Positions 2,278 through 43,461 of a stretch of DNA of 64,000 nucleotides are shown here, one piece after another. Source of the stretch: Pleurotus djamor (lineage: Eukaryota > Basidiomycota > Agaricomycetes > Agaricales > Pleurotaceae). The position numbers and the translations under genes are program-made. The notes under the pieces were generated by a model. That model did no database searches. It was not told the origin of the DNA and worked only from the letters and a program-made list of their open reading frames with translations. The DNA is taken from positions 28,101-92,100 of the forward strand of contig JAPEVF010000141.1 in NCBI GenBank assembly GCA_029747585.1. The letters run 5' to 3'. Position 1 is the first letter of the stretch. Each line of letters begins with the position of its first letter.

Positions 2278-4791
2278 ATGGGCTTATCTTGCTTCTTTCA
2301 TGGACTGGTGGTGCTCATTGTGGGCCTATCTACCAGTGCCAGACTCACTTCTCGTATCGGTGATATCGGAGGCGATTACGACTTCATTGTCGTTGGCGGT
2401 ACACCCATACTACTTACTTCCTGTGAGCGGAGGCTGACTTTGACTTAGCGGGGAATGCTGGTTGTGTCGTCGCTAGCCGGCTATCTGAGTCTCAGTCTAC
2501 TCGAGTGCTTCTCATTGAGGCTGGCATTTCGTGAGTTATCCTGGACTTCCTTCCCCTGATTGCTGATGAATCTGACAATCTGCTACCCATGATAGCAACG
2601 AGGGCATTGAGGACGCCATTGTTCCCTTTTTTGGCCCGCAAATGACCCCCAATAAGCCATGGAATTGGAACTATACCGTTGCCCCTCAGGTCGGTTTGGA
2701 TAACCGCACGTTTCCATACCCCCGTGGTAGACTCCTCGGAGGTACCTCCTCTGTCAGTAAGTTGGCAAGTGAAGGACCAAATATATCACCGCACTCAGCT
2801 CTGTTAGATTTCCTCGTTTACACCTGGGGTGGCTCCGACGACTTCAACCGTTGGGCCAACCACACCGGAGATCAAGGTTGGTCTTGGGAAAATTTACAAC
2901 CGTTTATGAGAAAGGTAAGCACACTTATTCAAACGAGGCCTTCCAGCCTGTCTGACACGCGTCGTTTGACAGAATGAGCGAATGGTACCGCCTGCGGACA
3001 ATCATAACACCACTGGGCAATTCCTCCCTTCTGCACATGGCTTCAACGGGACTTTGATGACGAGGTGTGCTTTCTTTCCATTGAGACACTTCCCTAGTTG
3101 CTGATGATATGCTCTGACCCAGCTTGCCTGGCTTCCCTAGTATGTTTATGCCCATATGCCGCACTAGGTCCTGTGCTTACGACATACTCCGCCTTAACTT
3201 AGCTCCCATCGACCCCATGATTTTGAACGCTACAACACAAGTCCCCGGTTTCCCGTTCAACATTGATATGAACCGAGGCAACGAGATTGGAATCGGTATG
3301 GAGTTACCTCGATTGTCCACATGTCGTTAATCTTCAAGTCTTGTTTCACAGGTTGGGCCGTCAGTACCATTGGCCAGTCCAAACGCGCTAGCTCAGCGAC
3401 GGCTTACCTTCGTCCTGAAGTCATTGCACGCCCGAATCTTGATGTCCTCTTTACGGCGCAGGTCACCCGCCTGATCTCAAAGGGTTTCCAGGGAGCAGTC
3501 CCTGTAGTGACAGGTGTTGAGTTCAGCCAGAGCCCTACTTGTGCGTCTGCAGAGTCTTCCGACTTGAAATTTTCCTCCCAATTCACCTTTGTTTTAGCTC
3601 CCAGGTTCAATGTGACAGCAAAGAATGAAGTCATTCTCAGCGCGGTAAGTGTGACCTGTACACGATGCTTTTAAGATAACTCAGTTTCCCTTGCAGGGCA
3701 CTATTGGCTCCGCCCAATTGCTACTGCTCAGCGGAATTGGCGACGCGGGAGAATTGTCTAGACTTGGTATCCGTCCCATCGCTAACGTCTCCGATGTTGG
3801 GAAGAACCTCCAAGTACGTGTTTTTCATCTTCAAAACAGGACACCAATGATTGACTCCACAACAGGATCACGCGCTTCTACCCAATCAGTTCTTCGTCAA
3901 TTCTACCAACACATGGGAAATGCGCAGGAACATGACTATCTTTAACGAACAATTTGCCGAGTACAACGCGACGGGCCAAGGCCCTCTCGTCAACACCGTA
4001 TCCAATCAATTGGCTTGGCTGAGGGTCCCCGACAACTCTTCTATCTGGCAAGGAGAACCAGATCCCTCCGCTGGGCCGACGTCTGGCCACTACGAGCTTA
4101 TCTTCTCTGTGAGTGCTTGACTCTCTATCGTTGCACTCACTCTCTAATAGATTCTCTCCAGAATGGCTTTATCGGTGTCGTCCAGTCCCTTCCTGATAAA
4201 GGGAATTTCTTCACCGTCACTAGTAATCTTGTGGCGCCCGCTTCCCGTATGTCTCCTTCCTGTGTCCTTTCGTGTTATCTGAGTTCTGCCCCAAGGTGGC
4301 TCCATAACCTTAAACTCTTCCAACCCCTGGGACAACCCGATCATCGATCCAGGTTTCCTCACTTCCCCTCTTGATGTTCGTATTTATCGCGAGGCTGTCA
4401 AGGCCGTTCATCGATTTATCTCTGCTCCTGTTTTCAATGGATACATCATTGGCCCCTTGGTAAAGGTTAACACAACCATCGATCGCGAAATTGACGCATA
4501 CGTGCGCAACTTCACCACGAGCGTCTGGCATCCAGTCGGTACCGCGTCCATGAGCTCGGTCCAATCAAAGTCCGGGGTCGTCAATCCCGATTTGACCGTG
4601 AAGGGTGTTAGTGGCTTGCGTGTCGTCGATGCATCCGTCATGGTCCGTATTCTTCCGTGTAGTTCTTTTTTGAAAATTCTGCTGACTTGGGCCATTTCTA
4701 GCCTTACATCGTTGCTGCGCATACTCAAGCTGCCGTATATGTTATTGCTGAACGTGCGTCTGATCTTATCAAGAAATCTTGGAAGCTCTGA
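2278..4791 (+). CDS. Secreted GMC oxidoreductase, aryl-alcohol-oxidase type (GMC1)
   Basis: This is a flavin (FAD) enzyme of the glucose-methanol-choline family, probably oxidising aryl or other primary alcohols outside the cell and releasing H2O2. The start MGLSCFFHGLVVL begins a hydrophobic signal peptide, followed by the ADP-binding segment DYDFIVVGG. The second GMC signature reads GTIGSAQLLLLSGIG. Near the C-terminus both catalytic histidines are present: TSVWHPVGTASMS, and AAHTQ before VIAERASDLIK. About a dozen short introns interrupt the gene. Four paralogues with the same architecture lie further right. The loop before the first catalytic His (GPLVKVNTTIDREIDAY) differs from the acidic version in the others, so the substrate may differ. 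The exact substrate cannot be read from the sequence. Confidence 0.9.
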
Positions 4792-11582: not shown

Positions 11583-11712
11583 GAGGAGAAGAGGAAAGGA
11601 GATTTGAAAAAGCTCAGGGTAACGCAATCACATTATTTCGGTTCCAAGCACGACCACACAATATATTTAGGAGTAATCAGGAGTAATGAGTTCGTTCCGA
11701 CAAGCGCTCTGT

Positions 11713-12077
11713 TCAGGCAACTGCGAACGAAGTCCCGGCATCTGCATCAAGATTCGTAGTAGATATGTCTCGGAAAGCTCACCAAAGATGAGGGAGCCGT
11801 TATCGTTCCCGATGAAACCGTTCAAATCAATTTCGGCGTCTTTCCACTCCCCCTCGACGTTCATGAGCTGTCCACGCAACGTCGTTCCATCCAACCAAAT
11901 GCCTTGCGCAGAGTCAAAAAAGTTCTCTCCTCCTGGAGCAAACTCTCCGTCGTGGTTACCGAGGATAGTGTTTAGGTTTAGCTCGCAGTCACCCCAGTCG
12001 CCGTCCCCATTTTGGACTGATGCGTACAAGGTGTGGTCCCCGAGACGGATGTTGGAGGAGGAATCGGCAAAAGACAT
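11713..12077 (-). CDS. Cyanovirin-N homology (CVNH) lectin
   Basis: Two exons (12077-11783 and 11741-11713) separated by a 41-base GT-AG intron give 107 residues, close to the roughly 100 of the family. The protein is built of two internal repeats of the CVNH fold. Each has the W-x-D/C-x-x-x-(I/L)xLN pattern and a GN-x-(D/N)G turn: GDWGDCELNLNTILGN and GEWKDAEIDLNGFIGN. It starts MSFADSSSNIRLGDHTLYA and ends IFDAGTSFAVA. There is no signal peptide. CVNH proteins bind mannose-rich glycans and occur in filamentous fungi, often cytosolic, with possible defence roles. Without the intron the frame would run into an unrelated tail. Sugar specificity cannot be told from sequence alone. Confidence 0.85.
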
Positions 12078-12678
12078 CTGGTACGTGTAGGTCTTTGAGG
12101 GCTGCTACGGAAGCGGATACTTAGTCAGGCCCTCATCTTAGAGAGTTGAGCACGTACAAGTAAATTGGGATCTTCGAGACGAGTCGTTGGTGCAAGTACG
12201 CCGCAAGCGAAGCACCTTTTATATGTCTTCCGTTAGAGCGCTTTTGGACACACCTGCATCATCGACATCATCCAAGAGACGAGGAACAACACCCTTTCTC
12301 TTGGCGACCTGTCACTATTCACCCACATTCAGCGATAGCATCAAGATGACCACATGATACAGTGAATTTCTCTGTAGTATCCCAAGCTTTGGGAACGACT
12401 TGCTTCTTGAGGAGTCTAGGCGTTTCTGATAGAGAAGAATGAGGTGTGTACCAAGGAATTCGAAGCTGCTGCGGACAGGATCAGCTCAACAAAATGAACA
12501 GGCAATCCAGATACAACCCATGCCGAAAGCCTGACCAGTCTCTTTGTCTGCTGGCCCCCTGAAACTCTGCCCCCTTAATGGTTTGCCACGAAGTGACGAA
12601 GTCACGAAACGCCCCTTCCAACCGCCTCCTTTCAAGTTGCAGGCATCAAAAATACCCAACCTTGACGTACACCCGACA
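12078..12678. other. Divergent promoter region, CVNH and F-box genes
   Basis: About 600 bases between divergent starts. On the minus strand TATAAAAGG (near 12214-12223) lies about 140 bases upstream of the CVNH ATG and is a good TATA candidate. An open frame runs into this region from the F-box gene but contains no ATG before 12679. Confidence 0.45.
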
Positions 12679-14493: not shown

Positions 14494-17020
14494 TAGAGAC
14501 TCCAGGCGGTTTTAATGAGATCAGAAGCCCGCTCAGCAATAACGTAGACAGCGGCTTGAGTGTGTGCGGCAACGATGTAAGGCTGAGGAAAACAAACGTC
14601 GATGTGAGTTGAGAATTTCAAAGAACACCATAATTACTGACCATGATGGAAGCATCGACTACACGCAGACCACTGACGCCTTTCACAGTCAAATCAGGAT
14701 TAACGACTCCAGAGTTGGAATTGACCGGGCTCATGGCTGCAGTACCGACGGGGTGCCAGACGCTTGTGGTGTACTTGCGTACGTACGCATCAATTTCGTC
14801 GTCGCTACTGGCACCGGCTTCTCCGTAAGGACCAATGATGTATCCATCGAAGGCGGGAGCAGAGATGAAACGGCGAACAGCTTTATAGGCTTCGCGGTAG
14901 AGGCGAACGTCGAGGGGAGAAGTGAGGAAACCAGGGTCGATGATCGGATCGTCCCAGGGGTTGGAAGACTTCAAAGTCAGGGAGCCGCCTGGTGGGAGAA
15001 GTCAGCAAACGCGAAAATAATCAGGGAGGAGACATACGAGAGGCGGGTGTTACCAAGTTGCTGATGATCGTGAAGAAATTTCCCTCGTCGGGGGTTTCCT
15101 GTATGATGCCAACGAACCCATTCTACGTAAAGGTGTCAGAAGCTACACGCAACAAACAGACCAAGCGCTTACTGAGAAGACTAGTTCGTAATGTCCAGTT
15201 GTTGGCCCGGCGGAGGGGTCAGGCTCGCCTTGCCACGCAGAAGAGTTGTCGGGAACCCGAAGCCAACCAATGTGATTACATATAGTGTTGACGAGAGGAC
15301 CTTGGCCTGTGGCATTGTATTCAGCCAACTGTTCGTTAAAGATGGTCATGTTCCTGCGAATTTCCCAGGTGTCGGTAGAATTGACGTAGAATTGATTGGG
15401 TAGTAGTGCGTGATCCTGTCTTGAGGTCAGTCAAATGGACTGTCCATGAATTTAGAGCGCGTACTTGGAGATTCTTCCCAACATCTGGTACGTTGGCGAT
15501 GGAATCGATGCCAAATTGCGACAATTCTGTAGGATTGCCGATTCCACTGAGTAGTAGTAGCTGGGCGGAGCCGATAGAGCCCTAGAAAGGAAGTTGATTG
15601 GTTTTAAGAGCAGCGCGTCTATGTGGAATATACTTACGGCACTGAGGATGACTTCGTTCTTTGCATTCAGAGTAAATTTAGGTGCTAGATAAGTTGAATC
15701 AACCAGGAAGCTCGTGGGAGAGAGGGTTCGGTCGCACGCACATGTAGAACTCTGACTGAATTCGACGCCCGTAACTGCGGGAACTCGTCCACGAACACCG
15801 TTTTGGATCAGGCGGGTTACTTGTGCCGTAATGAGGACATCGAGATTTGGGCGTGCAATGACGTCAGGACCGAGATAGGCGGTAGCCGAGCTAGCGCGCT
15901 TGGATTCCCCAATAGAACTGAAAGTCCAGCCTGTAAATAGATCGAGTGTCGGTGTGGGTGAACTATGGAATAATTGTAATCATACCGATGCCAGTTTCAT
16001 CGCCCCGGTTCATGTCGACGTTGAACGGGAAACCTGGGACTTGTGTGGTTGCTTCCAAGATCATGTTGTCGATGGCAGCTAAAGTCATCCATGCCGTAAG
16101 CCCACATTTTAGATCGCGTATATCTAGGCTTAGAGCTTACTGGGGTAACCGGGCAAGCTGGATGACGAGAAGTGACGTCAGGGTTTGGAATCACTACTGA
16201 AAGACGGAAAACGAACCTTGTCATCAGTGTTCCATCAAAGCCATGGGCCGAGGGGAGGAATTGTCCAGTAGTGTTGTGATTGTCCGCAGGCGGTACCATG
16301 CGTTCATTCTGTTGAAGATGTGTATCAGTCAGAGACGGTTTGTTTTAAAACGGAGAGTTTCACCTTTTTCATATACGGTTGTAAACCGTCCCAAGACCAA
16401 CCTTGATCTCCGGTGTAGTTAGCCCAACGATCGAAATCATCGGAGCCACCCCAATTATAAACGACATAGTCTAAAAAGAGGAGATGGGATGAGCGCGGTG
16501 AAACGTTTGATTTTGATTACGCATTGGCCGACTTACTGACGGAGGAACTACCACCAAGGAGCTTGCCACGGGGATATGGAAAGGTGCGGTTATCAAGGGC
16601 GGATTGGGGCGCGACGGTGTAGTTCCAGTTCCATGGCTTGTCGGGGGTCATTTCTGGACCGAACAAAGGAACGATAGCGTCTTCAATCCCCTCGTTGCTG
16701 CGATGATTGGGAAGAGTTAGCTTCGTCGGCAACCAATGGAAGGATGTTTGAAAGAACCCACGAAATGCCGGCCTCGATGAGAAGCACCCGAGTCGAAGGA
16801 GATTCCGATAGCCGACTGGCAACAACGCAACCAGCATTTCCCGCTAGTAAATCCATGTCAGTTTGAAGTAAAACAAACCCAGTAGCAAGGACTCACCACC
16901 GACAACGATGAAGTCGTAATCACCGTTGCTGACATCGTTGATAGACGAGGTAAGCTTGGAACTTGCTGATAGAGATACAGCGAGTAGCACAAGCCCATGA
17001 AGGAAGCGGGAAACGCCCAT
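14494..17020 (-). CDS. Secreted GMC oxidoreductase, aryl-alcohol-oxidase type (GMC2)
   Basis: Minus-strand FAD-dependent alcohol oxidase with many short introns. It starts MGVSRFLHGLVLLAVSLSAS (signal peptide), followed by NGDYDFIVVGG for FAD binding. The conserved WNWNYTVAPQ and LGGSSSV segments follow. Near the C-terminus come DEIDAYVRKYTTSVWHPVGT with the first catalytic His and AAHTQAAVYVIAERASDLIK with the second. The domain order and final residues (TAWSL) match the other four copies in the window. GMC1, GMC2 and GMC5 share the PYIVAAH version of the second active-site segment and so form one subgroup. The probable role is extracellular oxidation of aromatic or polyunsaturated alcohols producing H2O2 for lignin-modifying enzymes, by family knowledge. 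Confidence 0.9.
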
Positions 17021-17939
17021 TATGCTTGGTATGGAAGAGAGAGGAAGAGAACGAAGTCGTTGACGTTGGTTGAACGACAAGGCCCTAGGATAAATTGCAT
17101 CGGGTTTTTATAGGCTGCTCTCCGTAGGGAGCGCTTCAATATCAGGCACTAAGTGGTCTAGGATGAATTCGAAATGACAACCGCGCCCGCTCCTCCATCG
17201 GAAAGCCAGGGAGGAGACTTGTCCATACACGACCAAAAATCTGTGCAGGATTCAATGCATAGCTCATAGGCTCGGATTTTCGAGGGAATGATGGACGGCG
17301 TCATCTCCAAAAGGCACCTTCATTGGACTAGATATTGCTAAATGGGAGTAAAAAGGCGGGAGTCGCGGAGGGCATGATGCGCTCAGCCTAGCGGATAAGC
17401 AAGTTCGGGGCCGTGGACGGAGGGGCGGGAGTAGACACTCAGGTCAAAGGGGCGACTGAATATGGCGGTTTCATGGTCCACCATAGCCCTGGATGAGAGT
17501 TCGGCTATGTGGAGTTGACTTGAGTTGCATGACACAATCTTCCCAGACGAGACCGTTCCCGATCTCAAAAACTAGGCGGCGCTAGTGAGCGCCAGGGGGA
17601 TCACCTTGCTTCAGTTTTGCCTTGGCTAGACACAGGGATACAGTTATGGCACGACTTGGCTGCTGACGAGTGACCAATGTTTCCCATGAAAGCGAAAGTC
17701 GAGGCTACGAGTAAAGCGGAAAAGTCAGGCAAAAACAGACACCATTGACCGCAGCGTACGCTTTCACAGCAATTTCACAGACTACCAGTTGCAGGGACGA
17801 AAGTTGGAATACGTGATCATAGATTTGACACAACCCAAAGACAGTGCACAATGTATATGTAGCTCTGCCCAGATCAAGGGGAAGCAACACAATAGGTCTT
17901 CTACAAAAGGTAGATCAACAGCTACCAGTACTAACAAAA
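17021..17939. other. Upstream region of GMC2
   Basis: Holds the GMC2 promoter (a TTTTTATAGG-like TATA element on the minus strand near 17103-17113) and further unassigned DNA. No open frame above 61 codons has recognisable content. Confidence 0.4.
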
Positions 17940-18355: not shown

Positions 18356-19919
18356 CTGACCCCAAATCCACACGATGGTTGTGGAACCAATCGAAGCGAG
18401 TCGCGTTGGAAGCAGCGTCCCAAAATTTATCGCACCAAAAATGGCTGAGGCTCAGACTGCTGGAAACTTGAAAGAACGAACGTTCTCAAGAGTAAGGCCG
18501 TGAAACGTCGCTTACGGGCAACACTGCAAGGCGAAGATCGATACGTCATTCTCATAAGTCAGACGAAAACGATGAGAAGTTCNAAAAAAAACACGGAGCA
18601 TGAACCAAGCACGAACGCAGCTATCCCAGCCCAAAAAGGAAGGCAACGCCAAGACGACGCACTTTTACTTCAAAAGGAAACGGTCCCTCTATGGTAAACA
18701 AGCGCTCGTAGAACGCCCAAAATAAGGGTCTTTTTCGGCCTAAAAAGGTGATACCTGACAAAAGAAGCGATTCTAAGAAAAGAGGAGACCTTGCTGAAGC
18801 AAGGTGATACTTGTAACGACGGCACCCGAGGGAGGAGTGTCAAGGCAACGCACATTGACGAGTCAGCATGACAGGGCAGATCGTCCGCATCGACCAGAGA
18901 TAATGGACCTACAATCTCTTCAAAGTCTTCGACATCTTCACTTTGAATTGCCTATCAGCATCAAGCGACTGAAAGAACAGAAGGCCAAGCTCTCACTAAT
19001 GTACCTCGACTGACAAAGGGGATAGTTTGTGTGTACTTAGTCGAGTCCGAGGCGTGCGCACACGGACTGCACATACAACTACGTGCTGCGCCGGCTGCAC
19101 ATTACTCCCGTCGCAATTGCATCACACATAGCCAGCAGGGCTTACCACAGGTTGCCGAGCGCAACAAGTGGATGCAGGAACAATAGACTTGCGAAGATCA
19201 CCCTAATCCGCCGGCCTCACCGAGCCATAGGTTTTGGAGGGCTCGATCTGCGTCTGCGCAATGATGAGCAATCAGCCTAAAAATCGATGACGAAGCGTAC
19301 CAGAAGGAATAAATGGAGCATCGTCAAATGGGACTAGTGTTTGCGGTTCATGGTACCGGATTTGAATGGGACGGTGCAATGCAGAATACAGACAGATACT
19401 TAGAGCATGAATGCAGAAGAATTCTCTCACTTGTCGTGCAGGTATGTGGCGAGTCAGTGGGTTTTCCCCTGAACAGACGGAGCATTAAAATGTTTATGAT
19501 CTGATGTGAAGGTCGTTGACATCAAGGCCCAAGAGCGACATGGTTTATATAGCAGACTAGAGTCGCGGTTGGAGTCGCGGTTGATGTAGCAGTAGGCTGA
19601 GCAGAGGGCGCCTAATTTGCATGCCACGTTGATGCCACGTGAGGCACACGCGACGCGATCGTTGTCCGTTCTTGATCAAATTTGGTGTGTGCTTCAACTT
19701 GGTGCTTCCAACTCCCGCCGTTGCCAATGTCAATGGTCATTGCTAGGATCAATAGGCGCTGCACATGCTCGCTGCTATTGTACAGGAGCGCCTTTCAGAC
19801 ATCTGGGAAACTCACAAACAGCTGCTGCGAAGAAAACCGGTGAAATTAGCTTGCGGATGTCTTCGCGAAAAGAAAGGCTCAAGCTTCAGACTCACATCTG
19901 CGCTCCCAGTCTCTCACCT
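18356..19919. other. 1.5-kb region with no supported gene
   Basis: Several short frames occur on both strands, including a coil-forming stretch around 19765-19850 on the plus strand (IVQERLSDIWETHKQLLRR). That stretch could be an exon of the next candidate gene, but I could not connect it with consistent phases. An unresolved base precedes an A run at 18583. A further 5' exon of the minus-strand membrane candidate may also hide here. Confidence 0.35.
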
Positions 19920-20316
19920 CTATGCCAGTAGCTCAGGGCTTCCATCCGACTTACTCAAGATTTCGATGACCAGCCAGAAAACCAAAGAAGAGCTATACTT
20001 CTCGCTAAAAACCTCGAGACTCCTGTCCATGCCCCACTCGAGGGTAGTATCGGGCCTTTGAGAATACCGAGTGAGGCAGAAAAGCCCCCGATATCGGTTG
20101 CCATTGAGTGGCTCTTTGAAGCCCTTCGCATATTTACCGCTTCTAGTGCTCCAGGACGGAAAGAGTATCATGGTATGTCCGATTATTTTCTGAGGGATTG
20201 GTTGTTCTGTCAATCTCACGCTGTCATCCACAGGCCTTAACCGGAGTTACCTCCAAATAACATCGGACGGGTATCCTCTTCATTTTCGCAGGATCACCCC
20301 ATCCTGTTTCTGCTGA
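19920..20316 (+). CDS. Unrecognised gene fragment upstream of the UstYa pair
   Basis: Two exon-like pieces join with correct phase. The first, about 19930-20168, encodes QRRAILLAKNLETPVHAPLE and later ISVAIEWLFEALRIF. The second follows a GTATGT...CACAG intron and ends at a TGA at 20314-20316. The 5' part was not resolved, and the upstream coil near 19.8 kb may belong to it. The stop is only 66 bases before the first UstYa start, so it is close enough to be read with that locus, but nothing in it identifies a biosynthetic function. It may be a decayed gene. Confidence 0.3.
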
Positions 20317-20382
20317 GGTCGTGTGAGGGCTTTGAGCAAACTCCCTGTAGTCTCTCTCTAACCACCCACTAACCTGCGAAGG

Positions 20383-21246
20383 ATGATAACCCCCCACAGA
20401 CAACGTGCAAAGGCGCTTCGTTACACTTGGCTTGTCCTCCGCGTACTCTGTATGGTCAACATCTTGTTGGTCATTCTACTCGCCGTTCATGTCCTGGAAA
20501 AGCCTGGCGATGCTGTTTATTGTACGTCGACACTTTCGCTTCGGTTAGTATAACCATCGTACTCATATAAAGTCGGCTTCCCAGCTCCCGCACAAGACGT
20601 CGTTGAATACGAAATCAAGCGATTCAACACCGGTTTCCTTGATGAACCAAAGTCTGTCTTCCAAGGCCCGCCTACCGACGCCATGGATGCCGCTTGGCAA
20701 GATCTTTACAAAGGTATCATCATAGTGCTCATTCACCCACCATGTTAAATCGAACCTCTGTCTAGACGGCGTCTCGTATCTCCTCCCAGAGGAAGCTCGC
20801 CTCTTGAGAGATCCAACAGTCCCAGCGCCAGGTGCTCAAGTTTACGTCGGAGGGCTCGACGTCTTCCATCAAATCCACTGCTTGGTGCGCTCCCTCCGCA
20901 ACGCCCTTTCCAATTCCAACGTATACAAACCATTATTCCACAGGACATGATTCGAATGGCGGCTTATCCTGACAGGTATAACGCCTCACAGCGACATCAA
21001 ATGCACCTCCGTCGCAGCGGAAGTATGGGCCACCCCAAGATATCGGACCAGGAACACCTCCAGCACTGCATCAACAGCGTTCGTCAGTCACTCATGTGCT
21101 CTTCCGATATCAGCATAAACCCATATTACAACCCGAAATTGGAGAAGCGACCCTTCCCCCGATTCGACCAGTTACACACATGCCGTAACTTTGAGAAGAT
21201 CAAGGACTGGGCCTTTAAGCGGACGACGAATGTTTGGCATGAGTAA
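20383..21246 (+). CDS. UstYa-family (DUF3328) oxidative cyclase-like protein 1
   Basis: Four exons (20383-20521, 20573-20713, 20766-20884, 20944-21246) give 233 residues with clean phases. An N-terminal membrane anchor (VNILLVILLAVHVL) precedes a lumenal domain. The family hallmarks are both present: HQIHC in GGLDVFHQIHCL and HLQHC in EHLQHCINSVRQSLMC. The segments FNTGFLDEPKSVFQGPPTDA and RNFEKIKDW are also typical. UstYa proteins catalyse oxidative side-chain cyclisation and related steps on ribosomally made peptides in ustiloxin, phomopsin and asperipin-type pathways. It stands in tandem with a second family member and 1.9 kb from a Kex2-repeat precursor, which is the natural substrate candidate. 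Confidence 0.88.
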
Positions 21247-21372
21247 TTGTAACTTCTTACAACCCCACTCGGCTGTGTAGATAAGACACCAAACAAATCA
21301 CCGATCCTTTCTATCCGCGCCTGAGATATATCATCCACGGACAATCATTGACAACGTAGGCCTCCCACCAAG

Positions 21373-22452
21373 ATGAACAACCCCTTCAAGATTGATCCCC
21401 CTTCTTCTGTGGAAATCGAGCTCGAACGCGAACCTTTCCTAGGCTCCAGTGGAAAGGATGAACTCGACGTCGTTGATATCGATGGTCATTCAAATGGACG
21501 CCGCCTACTCTTACACCTGGCCGGGATAGTCTTACTGTCTTTCTCATCTATCAGTATCCTCCATGTCCTCCTCCGTGCAAACGTTTCAGTGACTCCAGAA
21601 AAAATATTTCCAACCCTACTGTACAGTGAGTATTCGAATCCCCGCGTTGCTGTCTATTGTCTCAACACACCTGCTCCTTCCCAAGGCCCCGTTGAACATC
21701 TTATTGAATATCAACATATCCGCTTCCACACCGGATTTTTCGATGACGAATTACCCTCCGTTTTCGACGGCCCGTCCACCGACGCAATGGATAAAGCCTG
21801 GTTAGACCTCTACGATATCTGGACCTGTAAGGTTCATTATTCCATCCGTTCTCATCAAGCTCAGGCTTTCCCTCTCTGTGCAGATGCCGTTTCTTCGCTG
21901 ACCGAAGATGAGAATGATCGTCTGCCCGATCCCACCGTTCCGGCCTTTGGAAACCATTCCCAGTTGTTTGGGGGCATCGACGTCTTCCACCAACTGCACT
22001 GTTTGGTTTGTCCAATCCCCCCATCGTGTCTTGTTGATATTGCTGAAACCTATTCATATTTTATTTGCACCAGGATTATGTTCGCCAAGCAATTGAACCC
22101 GACCGCTACAGTCGTGGCCACCATCATGGCAGGAAGCGGGCCATCTCACCTCCTCTCGTACCAAGGCGAGCAACGACGGATTTGCCACATGTATCTGACG
22201 CAGAACATGTTGCCCACTGCATCGACATGATTCGGCAGTCTCTCATGTGCTCGGCTGATATCAGNTGTTGTTTCGTGGTACTTTGCAGACGCCTCTGTAA
22301 TGAAGGGGCCCAGGGGGAATAGGAAGGGGAAACTGTTTCCAAGATTTGATCAGACACGTCTCTGCAGGAATTTCGATAAAATTAAGGGATGGGCAGGGGA
22401 GAGGACACCAAATGCGAGAGACCTGGAAGCAGTCCTCCCTCGTCCACATTAG
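21373..22452 (+). CDS. UstYa-family (DUF3328) oxidative cyclase-like protein 2
   Basis: Four exons (21373-21625, 21686-21826, 21884-22005, 22074-22452) with the same intron positions as copy 1, starting 126 bases after it. An acidic N-terminal tail precedes the anchor LLLHLAGIVLLSFSSISILH. Both motifs are present: HQLHC in GGIDVFHQLHCL and HVAHC in DAEHVAHCIDMIRQSLMC. The 3' exon contains an unresolved base at 22265. Taken as a real base it shifts the frame and truncates the protein; taken as a spurious extra base the frame continues through VVSWYFADASVMKGP and FDKIKGW to the normal C-terminus. The conserved downstream codons strongly favour the second view, giving about 297 residues. It probably acts with copy 1 on the nearby precursor peptide. 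Confidence 0.85.
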
Positions 22453-23164
22453 CTTACGTAGATTAATCGTGTTCAAACAATGAAAATTTCCTTCCGTTCC
22501 TCCGAATCTTCCCATAATTAAGGAACATAGATGATAATCAAGACGACCACAAGACGGCCATGGAGAATTAATCAACGCATAAGCGGCCAGGCTACCAAGA
22601 GCTGGCGTTGGCACCAAGGTATGCTAGAAGTCGGGAAGATCCTCTTCCAAATCGAGACTAGCTCTCACTCTGGTCTCGAAGATTGAGGGGAGTAACAAGA
22701 TCTACGGCCCACCAAGATGGCGCCACTGAGAAGTATAACAGCGGAGGCTTCTCTCGCCGGTGCCAAATATCGTCAAATATACGGCAGCGCTGCCTTGTAA
22801 CAGAGGGCGCGGATGCGTCCTCGGGTGATTTATCGTCTTATAAGTGCCGTTGGAACTTGTTGCAAGCTAAGGCTAGAGTGATTGACGGGAAACCACGATT
22901 GCACCATCAGCGGAAACTTCTCTCACCGGAGACAAAGAGCAACAAATATGCGATAACGCTTATTGAGCAGTGTTGGAAGGAGCACACGACGTGTGGTACT
23001 TTCTGACGGCGTGGGTGCGACGACAAACAACGCGTCCAAATATAAACAAAGTTTACTTCTTAGAACAGGTTCCCTATAAAAGGGTTCTTTCAGCAACTCA
23101 TGAGTTCACCAAGTCGAAAACAAACGGCCTACCCAACAGCAAATACCAATCCAGTCATCGCATC
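22453..23164. other. Region between UstYa 2 and the precursor gene
   Basis: About 700 bases with the 3' flank of UstYa 2 and the promoter of the precursor. No coding frame of interest was seen. Confidence 0.5.
23074..23084 (+). promoter_or_regulatory. TATA box of the RiPP precursor
   Basis: CTATAAAAGGG lies about 90 bases upstream of the precursor ATG. It is a near-perfect TATA element, fitting a strongly expressed secreted-peptide gene. Confidence 0.6.
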
Positions 23165-23613
23165 ATGCTTCGCAACGTCCTTTTCGTCCTCGCCGTCTTT
23201 ACGGCGTCCATGACGTCGACCAGCGCACTACCAGTCGAGCAAGGTCAGTCACCAAGCATCGAGTCGATGTGAATGATACTGACGAGGTTCTCCTTCATTT
23301 TGCCGTCGTAGAAGCTCCTGCCAAGCGCTTTTTCTACAAATATGCGGACGAAATCGCTGAGCGTTCAGCAGCCCCGGAGAAACGTTTGGTCTATATCTAC
23401 GACGGCGAAGTTGCCGAGCGCTCTGAAGTTGAGGGATTGACGAAGCGATTGGTCTACATCTACGACGGCGAAGTCGCCGAACGCTCGGTTGAAGGCTTGG
23501 AAAAGCGGCTTGTCTACATTTATGACGGCGAAGTTGCCGAGCGATCGGAAGTAGAGGGTCTGGAGAAGCGCTTGGTCTACATCTATCCTGATGAGAACGA
23601 AGCACTGGCTTAA
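23165..23613 (+). CDS. Secreted Kex2-repeat peptide precursor (candidate UstYa-type RiPP precursor)
   Basis: Two exons (23165-23243 and 23312-23613) give 126 residues. Residues 1-21 form a signal peptide (MLRNVLFVLAVFTASM...). A short pro-segment ends in APAKR. Then come five units, each preceded by a Lys-Arg Kex2 site. Unit 1 opens FFYKYADE, units 2-4 open LVYIYDGE and the last opens LVYIYPDE and ends the protein. Units 2-4 continue with VAERS and a Glu-rich spacer of 6-8 residues before the next KR. Every unit keeps an aromatic Y-x-Y pair, the kind of residue that UstYa enzymes cross-link. Two UstYa genes lie just upstream on the same strand. The exact core limits and product are inferred. 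An alternative is a structural repeat protein of the Kex2-processed repellent type. Confidence 0.85.
23321..23583 (+). repeat. In-frame 57-63-bp tandem repeat inside the precursor
   Basis: Coding repeats of 57, 63, 60 and 63 bases plus a truncated last unit, each beginning just after an AAGCG(C/T/A/G)-type Lys-Arg codon pair. Units 2-4 are almost identical in protein but carry silent differences, while the first and last have diverged. The third unit lacks one Glu codon in its spacer. Confidence 0.85.
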
Positions 23614-24713
23614 ATTATTCACCGCGTCTACGCACTTTGTTAAACAGTGTCCAATTGTGTGTACGGTCGATCGTAGTGCGTTCGCCTAGTGAATTCCATG
23701 TTCTTGTGTTGTGTTGTATCGCGTGTTGAGGTTGTCAAAGAAGGTGGCCGGATATGGCGGAAAATTGAAGAGCGTCGGGAGAATCCCTGTTGGCAAACAT
23801 AGAATTTCAGAATCTATCCAAGGACAGGCCGTGAGGTCAATATGCGAAAGTGAACGGAAAATATGACTTACTTTTCTAGGTGATTCACGTTCAACTTGTC
23901 TTTGTATTCGTCAAGCAGCTTCTAGCCATATAACTAAGTTTGGAGGATTCATCTAAAGTTGCCGCCCATGATCATCAAGGACTTCGATGAGGAAGTCCGG
24001 GTAGTCCCTCAAAGCCTTCCAGATCCGCTGAAGTCGCGTTCAGCACGAAAGGAGGCGTGGTCGGAAGCAAGTGGGCGATATACCATTCATCAGAGACCAT
24101 GGGTATGATTGAGTTGGCCTCCATAGCGGAGCTTTATGTCATGAATAGTCGTTCAGATGAAGATGTTGGCGCACTGCAAGGTCCTGAGCTTTTTGCTAGT
24201 TCCCGCAGCACTAAGTCCGGGGTCCATCTGGACAGAGAGGTGGACGATGACGGTGACGCTTTGAAATTTGGTAAGTATTTCGTGGCACCGCTGGCTCGGG
24301 TTAATTATGAGTATTCTGGTCATATTAGATTGAAGTATTATAGCCTAATTCGCTTGCTCATTAGTATTAACGGAGTCATCTAGTTTGGTCCGCTTCGACG
24401 CGGAGACGGCTGCAGGCTCAGGCGTCGTGCGTTCACGCTTGGTCCTCGCTATCAAAAAGGTGAGTTAGTATCCAGAACGACAGAGTGGAGAGCAGAGATG
24501 GATAGCTACCCACACGAGGGCGAGGTGGTGTCTTTTGGTTCCCCCGGCTTTTTAGACTTGAGAGGGCGGAAGTATGGTTGCGAGAGCCAGTGTGGTAGAA
24601 TTTTAAAGCCTGTGGTTGGCTCTATCGTTATCAACTCATTCCATGACTTGTCTTCCGCGTCCTTAGCCGCGCGCTAGATGAACGGTTGAGCGTGATGTCG
24701 ATAGAAAAAAAAA
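23614..24713. other. 1.1-kb region with ambiguous coding remnants
   Basis: Contains the 3' flank of the precursor and overlapping open pieces on both strands at 24.0-24.5 kb (described separately). No intact gene could be built. Confidence 0.4.
23963..24455 (-). pseudogene. Possible decayed or unresolved gene
   Basis: Minus-strand pieces look like protein: a basic stretch with KRERTTPEPAAVSASKRTKL after a good branch-point and acceptor context, then LVLRELAKSSGPC, then IIPMVSDEWYIAHLLPTTPP, then IWKALRDYPDFLIEVLDDHG before a TAG. Joining them needs a stop codon and a one-base shift to be crossed, or introns that I could not place. Plus-strand frames over the same DNA are also open (for example GGVVGSKWAIYHSSETMGMI, with a phase-consistent intron). 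One strand may hold a relic and the other be its shadow. I cannot name a family on either. Confidence 0.25.
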
Positions 24714-26106
24714 TCAAAATGAGATACGAACATCCATTCTCTCCTTCATCTCCTTCACGACATCCACATATTCCTTCAGCCCCTCTGGCCCGATTCTCCC
24801 ATCCCTCCCTTCAGAAGCACGTATCTTGCCCAGCTTATCACGAAGGTCAGGTTCATGAGCCAACGCGGGCCGCATGATTTTGAACATGTGTCCTTTGATC
24901 GCGGACGCTGCTGTGCGAGTTTTGAGGGATCCGACAATTGAAAGGTACTCGAGGGCTAGGTCAGTGTGGTAAGGGTGAAGGCCATCAAGAGGCGTGCTCC
25001 TCGGAGGCAGGGATTCGGGTTTATGGAGGGTAGAAGGCTGAAATGAAGACGATGCAAAAAGGGCTGCATTGTACAGCTGACCCTCGGCAGACATAACACC
25101 GTCACAACCTGTCGCGTCAAGACAAGCTTGAATGTCTTCATGATAGAGTATGTTTCCATTTGCGAATACAGGCACCGAAACAGCTTCCTTGACGGCTCGT
25201 ATGTGTTCCCAGGACGCTACGCCCTGTAAAAAATCATTGAAGTCAGCGGGGACGCCACTAGAGGGGACGCCAAATGTACGGTGTTCTGCCCACGTTGTTC
25301 CCGCAAACGACCATGACAAGTAATAATCTGAGCCCCAGCACGCTCAAGCATCTTTGCGTATTCAACGGTCTTTTCTATCGTAGGAAAGATTCGGAACTTG
25401 GCGGTCACAGGTATACACAAGTTGTTATGCAGGGTGTTGACTGTGAGATGATGTCAATGATAGAAGAAAGCATGCATTTCTTGAGATAAAAGACTCACTC
25501 AAAGAGTATATGAGATCCCAATCATCCTGCAAAAAGGAACCGTAGCGTCCTCGCTTTGCAATTTCTTGCGGGCACCCCAAGTTAATATCCACTGCATCAC
25601 AGTGTTTTTCAACGTATCTCGCCGAGGCAAGGAGCGCTTCTGGGTCGTTTGCTGCGAATTGGACGACAAGCGGTCGATCGAGGGGACCGCCCTCTTCACC
25701 ATTGATCGTGTCGAATTGGTGTTCCCGGAAGACGCCTTTGGTGGCTTCGTAGAACATCTAATATCGATTACAAGAGTTCAATTGGGGGTCACTGAGAGCA
25801 AGCGCACCTTTGCATTGATCATGGGCGTGTAAACAAGCTACCCGAAGAACTAATCCATAAATGTTGATACCACCTAGAGATGAGTCACGCATGGACCTAC
25901 CTGTGCGCCATATCTACGAGATAGTATTCTCCAGGCCTATTAAATTGATTAATCCACTATTTTCACCTTTGGATCAACTTACTTACCAGCTCGCTCTGGT
26001 CAACCATAGGCGCTACGATATACTTGGGGCTTCCCAAAACCTGACGGTAGAAATCATATCCACCGAGTTTTGCCGCTTGCTGTTTCGATTCGACCCCTTC
26101 AGTCAT
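24714..26106 (-). CDS. DUS1: tRNA-dihydrouridine synthase (Dus1 type)
   Basis: Minus-strand gene of several exons. It reduces specific uridines (U16/U17 in the D-loop) of tRNA to dihydrouridine using FMN and NAD(P)H. The start (ATG at 26106) gives [20 protein letters not shown], then [13 protein letters not shown]. The catalytic cysteine is in [20 protein letters not shown]. Later segments are [35 protein letters not shown] and [15 protein letters not shown], all in family order. The longer in-frame extension to 26241 begins with TTG and was rejected. It is a housekeeping gene that bounds the specialised-metabolism genes on its left. Confidence 0.92.
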
Positions 26107-26493: not shown

Positions 26494-27824
26494 TCATGGG
26501 AATACAATGACATTCCTGAAGTTGGACTTGTTGTCGACAACTCCCTGGTACGCCTCCAAGAACGAGTCGAATGGGAACTCCTGCACGATGGTCTTGACAC
26601 CCGTCTGCTGCGCAAACCTCACGCACTTCTCCATATCCTGCGCGCACCCACAGCACCAACCCTTGACCGTGGCCCTGTTCAAGTTCAACGTCAAGTTCCA
26701 CACTTCCAGCGGCTTATCCGTCGCAGCTGAGCAGATCATCACAGTGCCGTTTTTGCCTACGGCAGGGATGATATCGGAGACGTGCTTCGCGTAAGGGGCC
26801 GTCGTCAAGACGAGCTTGGCTCCACCGAGGGATTGGATGTATTTCACGACATCCGTGGTACTGGCGTCAATGTACTCAACAGCACCCAGAGAAAGGGAGA
26901 GATCCTTCTTCCGTGATCCAGATGATACGGCGTAGACCTAGAATACATACGGAAAAGGTTAAACACCGCTTTAAACACGACATTCAAAGGCAAGGGCAAG
27001 AGAGCGCACCTTCAAACCCATTTTGGCAGCGAACTAAACAGGGTGAATGACGTCAGAGAAAACCAAGTGTAAAAATAGAACGGCGCGCACTTGGACAGCC
27101 AAATGACCGAGACCTCCAATGCCTTGGACAACACAAAGATCTCCGGGGGACCAGGTCGAGGCACGAATGGCGTCATAGACCGTTGCACCCGCGCACAGCA
27201 ACGGCGCGAGTTCCGCATATGTCGCTGTCTTCAGCGCATCCTCATCCAAGGTAACCACGCCTATGATCACACGACAGTCAGAAAACACAACCCACAACTC
27301 CAAGGAGGAAAGGAAAACATACTAGTCTCAGGAGCGTACATATATTCCGCGTGTCCACCGTCAATGGTAAAGCCCGTAAAGTTACCGTTGGAGCATATCC
27401 AGAAATCTCCATTCCTGCACATCTCACAGTGGTTGCAATAGCCTCCATTCCAGCCGACACCGGACAGGGTTCCAACCTTGAATCTCCCACCGTCCGCACC
27501 GTACTTGGTCAAGATGTTGGACCCGACGGCAGCGACGCGACCGACCATTTCGTGGCCAGGGATTTTTGGGTAAGGGAGACCCGGCCATGTACCTTCCTTG
27601 ACGAAGTGGTCGGAAAAGCAGATTCCGGAGGCGTGAACACGGATGAGGATTTCATCAGGGCCTGGTTCACGGAGAGGCTTATCGACGATTAGCCAGTCCT
27701 CCTTGGGTTTAGGCACGGTGACTATTGCAGAGGAGTAATAGTCAGACGTTGAATTCATCACGAGGAGACTGTGGTTGTACTCACTGGCCTTGTAGGTTTT
27801 GGGAAGGTGGGCGATGGAAGTCAT
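26494..27824 (-). CDS. Zinc-dependent medium-chain alcohol dehydrogenase
   Basis: Minus-strand gene with three or four introns, about 380 residues. It interconverts a primary alcohol and an aldehyde with NAD(P)H. The catalytic zinc site shows ICFSDHF and PGHEMVGRVAAVG. The structural zinc loop has closely spaced cysteines in NGGYCNHCEMCRNGDFWIC. The nucleotide-binding turn is VVQGIGGLGHLAVQ. The start MTSIAHLPKTYKASEY begins a cytosolic enzyme without a signal peptide. The sequence is of the cinnamyl-alcohol/AdhP-like branch. An aromatic aldehyde is a plausible substrate because aryl-alcohol-oxidase genes surround it, but that is inference. Confidence 0.88.
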
Positions 27825-29573
27825 TATGTTTCTGATGTACGATGAGCTGTCAGAGCTGGTTAGAGGGCCTAGGCGGTGGTGAAACCGCTCTTAAGAGGGT
27901 TCGCAAGAAACTCCCATACCCAGGCCGAAGTCCTTAGGTGGGTCAGGTGGCAAGCTGGAGCCCTTGTTACATGACTCTGCTGACTGATCGGACGACTCGT
28001 ATATCGATGAACTATATCAGAGAAGCCCTCGATGTCAGTTTGTTCTACAGCAGACAATAATGATGGGTAGACATGAAGTCCACTTGAACGCCGCGTTACG
28101 GAGAAAGGGTTGCCTAACCCACCACAAGTCCGACAAAAGGCGTGTCATCCAAGTATCTCAAGTGGGATACAGAAATGTTTCGATGCGGCTCTTTCGCCTG
28201 GGGAGGCGCGTGGTTGATGAGGTGAATTCAACATATTTGGGGATAGTACCTAGAGATGTGATGCAAAAAGGCGCGAGTCAGCGGCGAATGGAGATATGAA
28301 AGATGAAACAAAGTCGAGATATCCGACTTTAACGTGGATACTTGCCTCAAACGTGCGTATGCTCAAGTATACAAGTGATATCCACGTCGCACGACCAAGA
28401 AGCATGCCTCGAGCCAACCCTTGACGTTGGGGTGACGCATCGGCTAATGTGTACATGTAACGTCCTGATCATGCCTGGGCTTTCACCCGCTGGAGTCGAG
28501 TCGCAATAGTCGGGGAAACAAATCTCCCAGATGAATGGTGCGGGAGTAAGTTGGGGCCGCCAAAGGTTGTGGCCGTGCTGTTTCGGGAAAGGGTGGGTTA
28601 TGTAAATGCCCCTGAGTCACGGACGGAGGCTCGGACTTTGAGCACAACTTTTCCTTCCGTTCCACTGCCATCAAGGCCCAGTCCTGTGACAAGTTCATCT
28701 TTAGTTCACCATCAAATCGACCGATGCTGCAAACATAGACGTATTCCGCTGGTCATCCATGGAAAATCTTTTCCACTTTTGCAAGGCGCCCCCGACGATT
28801 GAACAATCCCCGACTTCTACGCCAATCGTAGATCTACCACGACGTAATGTGTCAGAATCGTTTAGACTACCCAAGAATTCTGTACTTCTTTACAGGCACT
28901 TTTCTGGAAAATTACCGATGAAATTTGCCAGAGCTCAGCGAACATTGCTCGACTCGGCCTCTGTGCTAGCCTGCTGGTGCCCATGCTTGTCTCGCTTCTC
29001 TGGTTGATTGAAGAGACAACCAAGGAAGTTTTNGGCCACTCGTTTTCCGAAACCCCCTGGAAGCCCAGATCGGAACAACTTAGAGCTGGATCTCAGTACA
29101 CAGTCTAATCGTAATCGCTTAGACCGCTAATGTATGAGCGCATCATTCATTCCCGCCGTTGATGTTTACCATCTGGAGATGCGTTCCTATGCTCTGACCG
29201 TTCGATTGACTTTCTGGAGCTGTCTATCGTTCATCATACATCATTCCTCCCAAAGTCCGAGCCCGTCTCGATGTACAGCCGCCTCTCCCAAAAATTTCGT
29301 GTTTGACAAGTTTCTCTCCCATCTCACCGGGCAAGGGGGTGGACGCGTCCGTCTTGGGTTGATGTTGGCAACTGCTGTCCCTGGTCTGCTCTTTCAATTC
29401 ACTCCAACAATCTCTCGGGTGCCTAGACCTATGCGCTCCCTACGGATAAGAAGCTATAAGTACCTCCCAATGGATTCTCGAAGCACGTTGTTCTTCACCC
29501 AGCGAAGGCGCCTTGAGTATTTCCTTCCCCTTTCACCACTGCGCATCGTTCCTCTCGCCAAGGGTATCCCGAT
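27825..29573. other. 1.7-kb divergent intergenic region
   Basis: Separates the minus-strand alcohol dehydrogenase from plus-strand GMC3. Short frames show no family content. A TATA-like element (GCTATAAG) lies about 120 bases before the GMC3 ATG. One unresolved base is at 29033. Confidence 0.4.
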
Positions 29574-41776: not shown

Positions 41777-43461
41777 CTACAGCTTGAAGCCACCCTTCCA
41801 GAAGCGACCGAAGGTGTTGTCTGGGTCATAAACGCTTTGGATACTCTTCAGGCGAAGATGGTTGGCGGTACCGTAGGACGAGTAGACATCTTGCTCAGGT
41901 AGGGCGTAGTTCGAGTACAACCAGGGATGATGTACATTCCGTGCCTTGGCTTCTTGAGTTGCCCATGCGATCACTCCGCGAACAGCACTCTCCATTGCAG
42001 CGTTGTCAGACTTGGATGCCCACACCGTGTTGAGGTTGAGAACTAGAAACGAAATGATGGTCAATATGTGAGTACTGATTGACGCGAAGAGGCTCACGAA
42101 TGAGGTCGCCATCCGCAGGGGAGAGTCCAAGGGGAGTTCCACCATTGGCAGCTGTAGCTTGGAGATGCGTGACAGCGATGGGCTGGAACAACGCAGACCA
42201 TTGTACTTGAGGCTTGCCAACGAGAGGCGCAAAGAGTTCGTGACACTTCTCGTAGATACCAATCGCCATGTCTACATCGATCTTCAGTGTGACCGTCGAA
42301 AATATACGCCGCAGTCCAGAGGGGAAGGCATCGTCAACCTCTCCACTCAACGACTGTTGGTTGGTACTCCCGCGGATGGAATCAGTGCCAGGGATCGAGG
42401 GGACAGCCAGCATATCGTCGAAAAGATCTGTTTGCGAGACGTCGGCACCGAGGTAGGCATACGAAGAGAAGATCGTGTCGTTCTGCATGATTTCGTTGTA
42501 GCCCCACACAACGGAGCCACCACCATGGGGATCGTTCCTCAGCTTCACCATCATCTGTGTCATGGCATTGAATATCGCGGGGCCAGTAGAAATTGTATGT
42601 CCTCTGAATCCACCCCACTTGGGGGTCAGTGGGTACGCCTTGACATCGAAGCGAGTGATGATGCCGAGATTCGTGCTCCCGCCCTTGAGACCCCAGAAGA
42701 GATCAGGTTCCGAGGCTGCGTTCGCGTTGACAATGCGTCCGTCGGAGAGTACGACCTCATAGTTGACGACGTTGTCTGAGGCAAATCCATGTTCGGGCGA
42801 TAGGTTTGAGAAGCCGCCTGCCAAAGTGATCAGCGCTCAGACTTCCGATTGATAGAAGATGTCTGCTTACCTCCAAGAATGAATCCGCCAACACCGACGA
42901 TGTTTGAGCGACCACCAACGACAGTGACTCCAAACGGGTCGAGTGTGTCATATACCGCACCCCATGTCCCTCCAGGACCAAGGCTCGCGACCTTCTTGTC
43001 TGCAGACAGCGTCGTTGCATTGATGAGTCGAAGATCAATAGCAACACCGGGGCTAGCAATATTCGCTGCACCAGCCCAAGGCATGTTACCAACGGACCGT
43101 ACAGAAAACGGACATTCGCCTTGCTTGACTATCTTGACCGCTTCAGATACATCTTCTGCGTTGGTAGTAGCAACACGGCATTGCGCTACGAGCTCCGACT
43201 CCTGAGGGGTGTAGTACGATGCGCTGAGCTCCTGGAAGCCTGCAGAGCCAGGCAACATGACTTTATCGCTACCGAGCTTCGTCAGCAGTTCCTGACACTG
43301 GAATTGGATGCACGATCAGAAATAAGCTCGATCGAAGAAGGTAGGAGACCTCCACAGTCGTTGCTGGCGATGATTTGCCTTCTCAACTCATTGCTGATGG
43401 TAGCTGCTTGTGATGAAGCAATGAGAGCGAAGAGAAGGAGAGATGAAAAGGAAGAAGGCAT
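41777..43461 (-). CDS. Secreted berberine-bridge-type FAD oxidase with altered FAD-linking motif
   Basis: Minus-strand gene of four exons, about 500 residues, with a signal peptide (MPSSFSSLLLFALIASSQAA). FAD-binding domain of the PCMH/VAO type: GECPFSVRS, AIDLRLINA, VVGGRSNIVGVGGFILGG, then GFASDNVVNYEVVLSDGRIV, DLFWGLKGGSTNLGIIT. The C-terminal BBE domain ends SVYDPDNTFGRFWKGGFKL. Enzymes of this group oxidise alcohols, sugars or alkaloid-like metabolites. The FAD-linking motif, normally RSGGH in fungal members, reads RSVGN here, so the histidine is Asn, and no Cys is present in the second linking segment. FAD, if bound, would be non-covalent. It lies with a transporter, a monooxygenase and an NRPS-like gene. 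Confidence 0.88.

Follow-up and report, generated by a model that had tools for sequence, protein, structure and literature searches.

Does a compact locus of Pleurotus djamor, in which two genes for UstYa-family (DUF3328) proteins stand upstream of a Kex2-repeat precursor gene, direct the synthesis of a dikaritin, and if so, of which type? By analogy with characterised systems, the locus is probably (probability about 0.78) an asperipin-type dikaritin (RiPP) locus, in which cores freed by Kex2 would receive Tyr ether cross-links from the UstYa pair. The features on which this reading draws, in the window (the whole 64,000-nucleotide stretch analysed, on contig C453), are as follows.

20383..21246, + strand: UstYa-1 (DUF3328/PF11807), 229 aa, four exons, splice model with GT-AG introns
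20383-20521, 20585-20713, 20766-20884 and 20944-21246, + strand: UstYa-1 exons, splice model
21373..22452, + strand: UstYa-2 (DUF3328/PF11807), four exons, borders from the intact C340 allele and from border motifs found in the window
21373-21625, 21686-21826, 21884-22005 and 22074-22452, + strand: UstYa-2 exons
23165..23613, + strand: KEP-A, Kex2-repeat precursor, 126 aa, exons 23165-23243 and 23312-23613, gene model
23165..23242, + strand: predicted KEP-A signal-peptide region, ending ALPVEQ, a hydrophobic segment of 26 full codons, codon 27 being split by the intron
23329..23343, + strand: core 1, FFYKY, the nearest of the KEP-A cores to the family consensus
23386..23406, + strand: core 2, LVYIYDG, core table
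23449..23469, + strand: core 3, LVYIYDG, core table
23509..23529, + strand: core 4, LVYIYDG, core table
23572..23586, + strand: core 5, LVYIY, running on as PDENEALA to the C-terminus

A sequence-only reading of this DNA had described two tandem DUF3328 proteins, each with two HxxHC motifs and an N-terminal anchor, and the gene models, the Pfam matches and the one strong hydrophobic segment at the N-terminus of each protein bear this out. UstYa-1 matches the Pfam UstYa model (cut-off 25 bits) with E 1.5e-51 and includes HQIHC (residue 124) and HLQHC (residue 167), while UstYa-2, scanned as its C340 allele, matches with E 2.5e-40 and includes HQLHC and HVAHC, read in the window frames. Both motifs fall in invariant columns in an alignment of 62 UstYa sequences, and the two proteins belong to two well-supported clades of the tree (100/99 and 100/100), composed mainly of Pleurotus sequences. 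UstYa-1 is 71% identical (alignment A3) to P0007, the product of P. djamor ONZ45_g2362. The predicted fold of this close relative (mean pLDDT 84.7) is informative only for the helices bearing the HxxHC motifs; no match at E <= 0.001 was obtained when it was compared with solved structures, and a PDB sequence search with P0007 gave none at E <= 0.1.

In the last exon of UstYa-2 the reading frame changes beyond position 22265, where the base is given as N; the window contains eight such isolated ambiguous bases. On contig C340, which is collinear here, the UstYa-2 allele is open along its whole length and encodes 297 aa. C340 shows 94.5-95.5% identity to the window, with no match to it upstream of C340 base 6235. 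As two other contig pairs show similar identities (94.5 and 94.8%), C340 is preferably taken as the second haplotype, and its interpretation as a separate duplicate is disfavoured.

The UstYa genes lie 0.7 and 1.9 kb upstream of the precursor gene, all on the + strand, as had been stated. KEP-A is a secreted-looking precursor with repeated cores between Kex2 dibasic sites, the signal peptide being predicted from hydropathy and from an ALPV boundary common to most relatives. It contains five KR-preceded cores, FFYKY once and LVYIY four times, with Tyr3 present in all five. The five KR..Y.Y motifs are not a chance occurrence, since none of 20,000 residue shuffles gave more than one (0 in 19,947 and 1 in 53), and the looser [KR]R..Y.{1,2}Y motif was found in KEP-A alone among the 490 ORFs of 60 aa or more in the window. 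The earlier count of five Y-x-Y segments thus stands. Compared in pairs, the three complete copies of LVYIYDGEVAERS show 4, 7 and 7 synonymous differences and none that is nonsynonymous. The KEP-A protein of the C340 allele is identical, which is weak evidence of constraint because the intron is identical too.

The relatives of KEP-A place it among known precursors. A two-sequence profile search returned six precursor relatives (E 1.4e-13 to 3.6e-5), and an eight-sequence profile, scored against the roughly 8,000 candidates with the most words in common, returned 30, of which 24 were additional to the six used to build the profile. The asperipin-2a-like family, with cores of the form F-[FY]-Y-T-x-Y, has members in Aspergillus, Penicillium and Beauveria. 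As judged by sequence comparison with these relatives, KEP-A is homologous to the asperipin-type FYYTxY precursors. The profile searches assign KEP-A to this family, as one of five P. djamor loci. Among 124 aromatic post-Arg hexamers in 34 relatives, Phe is found at position 1 in 111, Tyr at position 3 in 118 and Tyr at position 6 in 108. No KEP-A core has Tyr6 and one of the five has Phe1, the family pattern F-[FY]-Y-x-x-Y being absent, and KEP-A is therefore filed as a divergent relative and not as an asperipin-2a producer. Core 1 retains FFY, and YxY-spaced cores occur in other family members (FFYLYD, FFYIYD and FYYHYT). The novelty is in the core, where Phe1 is replaced by Leu and the second Tyr is shifted from position 6 to position 5. 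Neither KEP-A nor its paralogue on contig C685 was among the database proteins returned by the precursor profile searches, which suggests that such small precursor genes are easily overlooked in annotation.

The five P. djamor precursor loci have like signal-region residues and a matching intron place (by eye for precursors C, D and E), and two of them adjoin a UstYa-1/UstYa-2 pair. The layout recurs on C685, where a precursor gene encoding nine FFYT[DH]Y cores accompanies UstYa-1 and UstYa-2, with less than 2 kb between gene ends. KEP-D, the precursor on C634, encodes FYYTGY, the exact asperipin-2a core, and was weighed as a possible neighbour of the C685 cluster in the other haplotype; a 0.5-kb stretch beside it matches only C685:43364-43883 (84%), and a further 0.3-kb stretch nearby matches the same C685 region, where collinearity ends in the sequence examined. 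A genome pattern search gave 60 places, 20 of them within the precursors and 40 copies of one identical 24-base sequence, which were dropped; a second search gave nine, six belonging to KEP-A and its C340 copy and three single ones that were dropped.

PF11807 matches occur on 18 P. djamor contigs, three of which carry a family precursor. The tree places three gene pairs in the UstYa-1/UstYa-2 clades. In those of C453/C340 and C685 both motifs are intact and a family precursor follows directly downstream of UstYa-2, whereas in the C926/C612 pair UstYa-1 reads HQLRC on both contigs and no family precursor was detectable in the flanks examined. A scan of UstYa neighbourhoods for repeated KR segments gave precursors only at C453/C340, C685 and C1006. 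The DNNGWHG repeats on C1006, weighed as another precursor type, continue into a longer coding-looking region.

In the proposed pathway, KEP-A would enter the secretory pathway and be cut at its KR sites by Kex2 and then Kex1, to give peptides some 13-19 residues long with LVYIY or FFYKY at the N-terminus, as predicted from the sequence. The membrane-anchored UstYa-1 and UstYa-2, members of a family reported to be dicopper oxidases, would then oxidise N-terminal Tyr side chains to form ether-linked rings, by analogy with the AprY reaction, and later trimming might, more speculatively, leave a small cyclic peptide. The available text of PMC6514808 gives the asperipin-2a core as FYYTGY and AprY as essential, and that of PMC12186524 describes a Tyr-O to Phe-Cbeta link made by DUF3328 enzymes with a dicopper site. 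As Leu replaces the asperipin-2a Phe whose beta-carbon accepts the Tyr oxygen, the predicted first link is Tyr3-O to Leu1. The AprY chemistry may not transfer, since Phe1 is missing in four of the five cores and Tyr6 in all five. Computed [M+H]+ values are 842.4294 for unmodified LVYIYDG, 840.4138 after loss of 2 H and 838.3981 after loss of 4 H; the corresponding values for LVYIYDGEVAERSVEGLE are 2041.0124, 2038.9967 and 2036.9811.

An unlikely alternative, though the one that survives best, is that KEP-A gives linear Kex2 peptides serving as signals or in defence, the UstYa pair being a bystander or acting on another substrate. Umemura 2020, in the portion available (PMC7329392), reports DUF3328 within 15 genes of only 103 of 1680 Basidiomycota Kex2-repeat proteins, and the Kex2-derived peptides that peptidomics detected in P. 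ostreatus and P. eryngii, as far as given in PMC9769878, are linear, show minimal modification and seem to come from other precursors; UstY or DUF3328 is mentioned 0 times in the main text of that paper. A precursor apart from any UstYa neighbour, which the sequence-only reading had named as evidence against itself, was in part encountered: C1249, C634 and C548, the contigs of precursors C, D and E, have no PF11807 match, and in P. eryngii a related precursor is on a 492,745-base contig and the UstYa-1 and UstYa-2 homologues are on contigs of 150,356 and 352,757 bases. However, both motif-intact UstYa pairs precede a family precursor, unlike the HQLRC pair, and the retention of Tyr3 also argues against purely linear products.

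Less probable still is a modification by the UstYa pair that closes no ring, for example beta-oxidation or desaturation of Leu or Tyr. In phomopsin biosynthesis, according to a title cited in PMC12186524, the formation of dehydroamino acids is a further activity of UstYa proteins, and the change of Phe1 to Leu takes away the known acceptor in four cores; yet ring closure is what AprY performs on FYYTGY, the characterised system nearest to this one by its precursor, and Tyr3 is again retained throughout. A relic pathway, with the UstYa-2 frame change real in one nucleus, is very improbable despite decayed relatives in this genome (precursor E, a truncated precursor C allele and the HQLRC UstYa-1), given that a lone N stands where the frame changes, that the C340 allele keeps its frame and that the KEP-A repeats vary only synonymously.

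The asperipin-type reading leads to a wider and doubtful proposal for P. djamor, that of a combinatorial cyclic-peptide system. The UstYa pair (three gene copies, two of which look intact) might serve at least four intact precursors, some in trans, with precursor sets that differ between the nuclei of the dikaryon, and the chemistry of the window cyclase might have moved from Phe/Tyr acceptors to Tyr-O-Leu on a tighter Y-x-Y core.

The view that UstYa genes and a Kex2-repeat precursor with aromatic Tyr cores form a dikaritin-type locus in this basidiomycete is supported. Its claim to newness holds for the LVYIY core but not for the setting, since basidiomycete Kex2-repeat/DUF3328 loci had already been published in PMC7329392, and Pleurotus UstYa genes in an eLife 2022 paper (PMC8893723), the available part of which states, with reference to earlier work, that the 16 UstYa-like genes of Pleurotus probably serve dikaritin synthesis. 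No report of a side-chain-cyclised dikaritin from a basidiomycete was found in the portions of the literature consulted. An edible mushroom with FFYT[DH]Y, FYYTGY and LVYIY precursors and two motif-intact UstYa pairs provides an internal comparison, and the locus offers a direct test of the substrate requirements of UstYa oxidases and of whether mushrooms make asperipin-like peptides at all.

Among known systems, the ustiloxin and phomopsin dikaritins share with this locus UstYa genes and a Kex2-repeat precursor. Unlike them, it has no Y-x-I core, the motif being absent from the KEP-A sequence, and no tyrosinase match on its contig (PF00264 matches number 21 in the genome and are absent from C453, C340 and C685). 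This type was rejected on these grounds, and no ustiloxin- or phomopsin-type core was found among the returned precursor relatives. Rfam gave no match over the window. The Kex2-repeat peptides of Agaricomycetes have a signal peptide, repeats and KR sites in common with KEP-A but are linear, as described in the available part of PMC9769878. The C685 locus (ONZ45_g2362/g2363) has the same three gene types, the same precursor intron place and the 71% identical UstYa-1; it differs in its nine FFYT[DH]Y cores and in a UstYa-1 gene that is divergently transcribed. The asperipin-2a cluster of Aspergillus flavus consists of four genes, aprA, aprY, aprT and aprR, and includes no tyrosinase. Among 39 hand-chosen ORFs of the 108 in the window that reach 110 aa, and one of 87 aa, none could be recognised as a transporter or reductase like those of the asperipin cluster. 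A zinc alcohol dehydrogenase encoded at 26497-27890 belongs to a family other than that of the asperipin reductase. The P. djamor locus differs from that cluster in its two UstYa genes instead of one, its basidiomycete host, its mainly LVYIY cores and its long spacers. The two are alike, with the A. flavus cluster taken as described in print, in a secreted precursor, short Tyr cores between KR sites, the core family F-[FY]-Y-x-x-Y, an adjacent UstYa-family oxidase (here two genes, each with both HxxHC motifs, less than 2 kb separating gene ends) and the lack of a tyrosinase.

Three + strand gene models with GT-AG introns bore out the sequence-only reading, which had placed two UstYa genes and a Kex2-repeat precursor on one strand of the window (assembly of 55.9 Mb, 1413 contigs):

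20383-21246, +, UstYa-1
21373-22452, +, UstYa-2 (frame shifts after a single ambiguous base)
23165-23613, +, Kex2-repeat precursor A

From its sequence, the locus combines a repeat precursor that has a hydrophobic N-terminus and Kex2 sites with a UstYa pair carrying both HxxHC motifs. Contig C340 of the same assembly is collinear with window positions 19859-25023 at 94.5-95.5% identity, a short gap excepted, as is similarly seen in other contig pairs of the assembly; it is taken to represent the second nucleus. The UstYa-2 allele on C340 has a reading frame open throughout, and UstYa-1 differs between the haplotypes at 18 synonymous and 14 nonsynonymous sites. The precursor A protein is identical in both (one synonymous difference); as its intron is also identical, this comparison says little.

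Precursor A contains five KR..Y.Y motifs, as compared with at most one in each of 20,000 residue shuffles, and a looser motif was found in one of the 490 ORFs of 60 aa or longer in the window. Pairwise comparison of the three full LVYIYDGEVAERS units gives 4, 7 and 7 synonymous and 0 nonsynonymous nucleotide differences, so that selection seems to act on all 13 residues of the unit and not just on YIY.

Genome-wide searches with three of the precursors as queries and two patterns identified five family loci:

window and C340: precursor A, beside the UstYa-1/UstYa-2 pair
C685:40929-41598: precursor B, nine FFYT[DH]Y cores, beside a UstYa-1/UstYa-2 pair
C1249:10235-10666: precursor C, seven FYYT[NH]Y cores, intact
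C634:47408-47933: precursor D, cores FYYTGY, YLYSKY, FYYTHY, FYYHDY and FYYTRY, ~2 kb from the contig end
C548: precursor E, three FYYNDY cores, of which one has no Arg before it; apparently decayed

In all five, a short exon encodes the signal peptide and the position of the intron corresponds, which for C, D and E was judged by eye. The five differing cores of precursor D include FYYTGY, exactly the core of asperipin-2a (PMC6514808). The single-copy stretch C634:46895-47401, which adjoins precursor D, has its sole match (84%) at C685:43364-43883, downstream of precursor B, and may represent a duplication or the other haplotype. The contig of precursor C is 91-92% identical to C685:15.7-17.5 kb, and thus on one nucleus precursor C is probably both intact and ~22 kb from the C685 UstYa pair. 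The C685 copy (C685:15691-15798) ends after one core and has a multicopy repeat within 0.2 kb. Given that precursor C is intact on C1249 and broken on an apparently allelic contig, the set of encoded peptides seems to differ between the two nuclei.

Precursor A is related, as judged by profile searches that scored only the ~8,000 candidates with the most shared words, to precursors with FYYTxY cores. A profile of precursor A and its C685 paralogue matched 6 proteins (E <= 0.01), and an eight-sequence profile matched 30, six of them profile members. Matches were from Aspergillus, Penicillium, Beauveria, Pleurotus eryngii and further entries, with cores such as FYYTHY, FYYTNY and FFYTNY. Among 34 relatives (4 from this genome, 30 from databases), 124 hexamers follow Arg and have at least two aromatic residues, a few of which, such as DDYQYF, are not cores; F1 occurs in 111, Tyr3 in 118 and Tyr6 in 108, and none begins with Leu. 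The typical Tyr6 is missing from all five window cores, a point against the reading as a cyclic-peptide locus. The window's Y-x-Y spacing also occurs in FFYLYD (A. fijiensis), FFYIYD (a database entry) and FYYHYT (P. verhagenii).

In the genome, PF11807 had 37 exon-level matches, spread over 18 contigs. The UstYa frames on C685 match the P. djamor proteins ONZ45_g2362 and g2363. A search with UstYa-1 found 144 proteins at E <= 1e-10, and a tree of 122 rows was built from 118 of the best 120 of these, two partial P. pulmonarius rows being dropped, and 4 sequences from this genome. UstYa-1 falls in a clade of 5 rows (support 100/99) and UstYa-2 in one of 8 rows and one further entry (100/100); the clades join at 99/70, with Hohenbuehelia outside both. 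Among the same best 120 of 144 matches, the contigs that carry the two genes in P. pulmonarius have the same length, 47,522 bases. The four His and two Cys of the motifs are invariant in 62 of 62 aligned sequences chosen from the match list, and a structure model of P0007 (P. djamor ONZ45_g2362), a close UstYa-1 relative, places the motifs on two helices, 123-137 and 166-182.

In a third UstYa-1/UstYa-2 pair (C926:1-2467 and C612:48179-50420), the first UstYa-1 motif is HQLRC, not HxxHC, on both contigs. The flanks examined contained no detectable family precursor. A small Cys-rich, secreted-looking protein lies directly downstream of the C926 pair (frames 2616-2879 and 2925-3131). A simple scan of further UstYa neighbourhoods detected no family precursor, and for the UstYa contigs C818, C815, C708 and C1088 the genome-wide searches placed none. 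On C1006 (~16557-17300; L023:4557-5306), DNNGWHG-containing repeats with KR/RR sites lie at the N-terminus of an apparently longer secreted protein; one lone UstYa gene is 4-5 kb away. A further point against the cyclic-peptide reading is that strict one-to-one clustering of precursor and UstYa genes fails, since the contigs of precursors C, D and E have no PF11807 match and P. eryngii carries its precursor, UstYa-1 and UstYa-2 on contigs of different length (492,745, 150,356 and 352,757 bases, respectively).

A domain scan that covered 39 of the 108 ORFs of 110 aa or longer in the window, plus one of 87 aa, recognised no transporter or reductase of the asperipin kind. The surroundings of the locus include:

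11670-12104, -, CVNH (cyanovirin-like lectin) domain ORF (Pfam E 3.7e-23)
12.5 and 44.1 kb, F-box genes
14.6, 31.6, 35.3 and 37.2 kb, GMC oxidoreductase exons
24717-25343, dihydrouridine synthase exon, downstream of precursor A
26497-27890, zinc alcohol dehydrogenase, downstream of precursor A
50.8 kb, phenol hydroxylase

A stretch within an FAD-oxidase-like region (41777-42985, -) is 79% identical to C1249:11789-13000, beside precursor C. There were no tyrosinase matches on the window contig C453, on C340 or on C685, and one match set on C634, ~29 kb from precursor D.

The expectation that a basidiomycete locus of this type would be new held in part. No report of a cyclised basidiomycete dikaritin was found in the titles and abstract openings of the papers listed for UstYa, DUF3328 and asperipin, but 103 of 1680 basidiomycete Kex2-repeat proteins have DUF3328 within 15 genes, and Kex2-repeat type #24 is common to Aspergillus, Penicillium and several basidiomycetes (Umemura 2020, PMC7329392). 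Pleurotus has 16 UstYa-like genes, for which dikaritins were suggested on earlier work cited there; 6 of these show developmental expression, which in every case is allele-specific (PMC8893723). The locus is therefore a variant of something known, and its interest rises if the product proves cyclic. The product could instead be linear, as are the Pleurotus Kex2 peptides found, which apparently derive from other precursors (PMC9769878).

In the proposed oxidative pathway, Kex2/Kex1 would release peptides from precursor A, and the UstYa-1/UstYa-2 pair would oxidise them. DUF3328 enzymes have a dicopper site and join Tyr-O to Phe-Cbeta in asperipin-2a; a Tyr-O-Leu bond is chemically known too, being formed by a copper-dependent cyclase of plants (PMC12186524). 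Because Leu stands at the position of asperipin-2a's acceptor Phe, a Tyr3-O-Leu1 link is predicted here.
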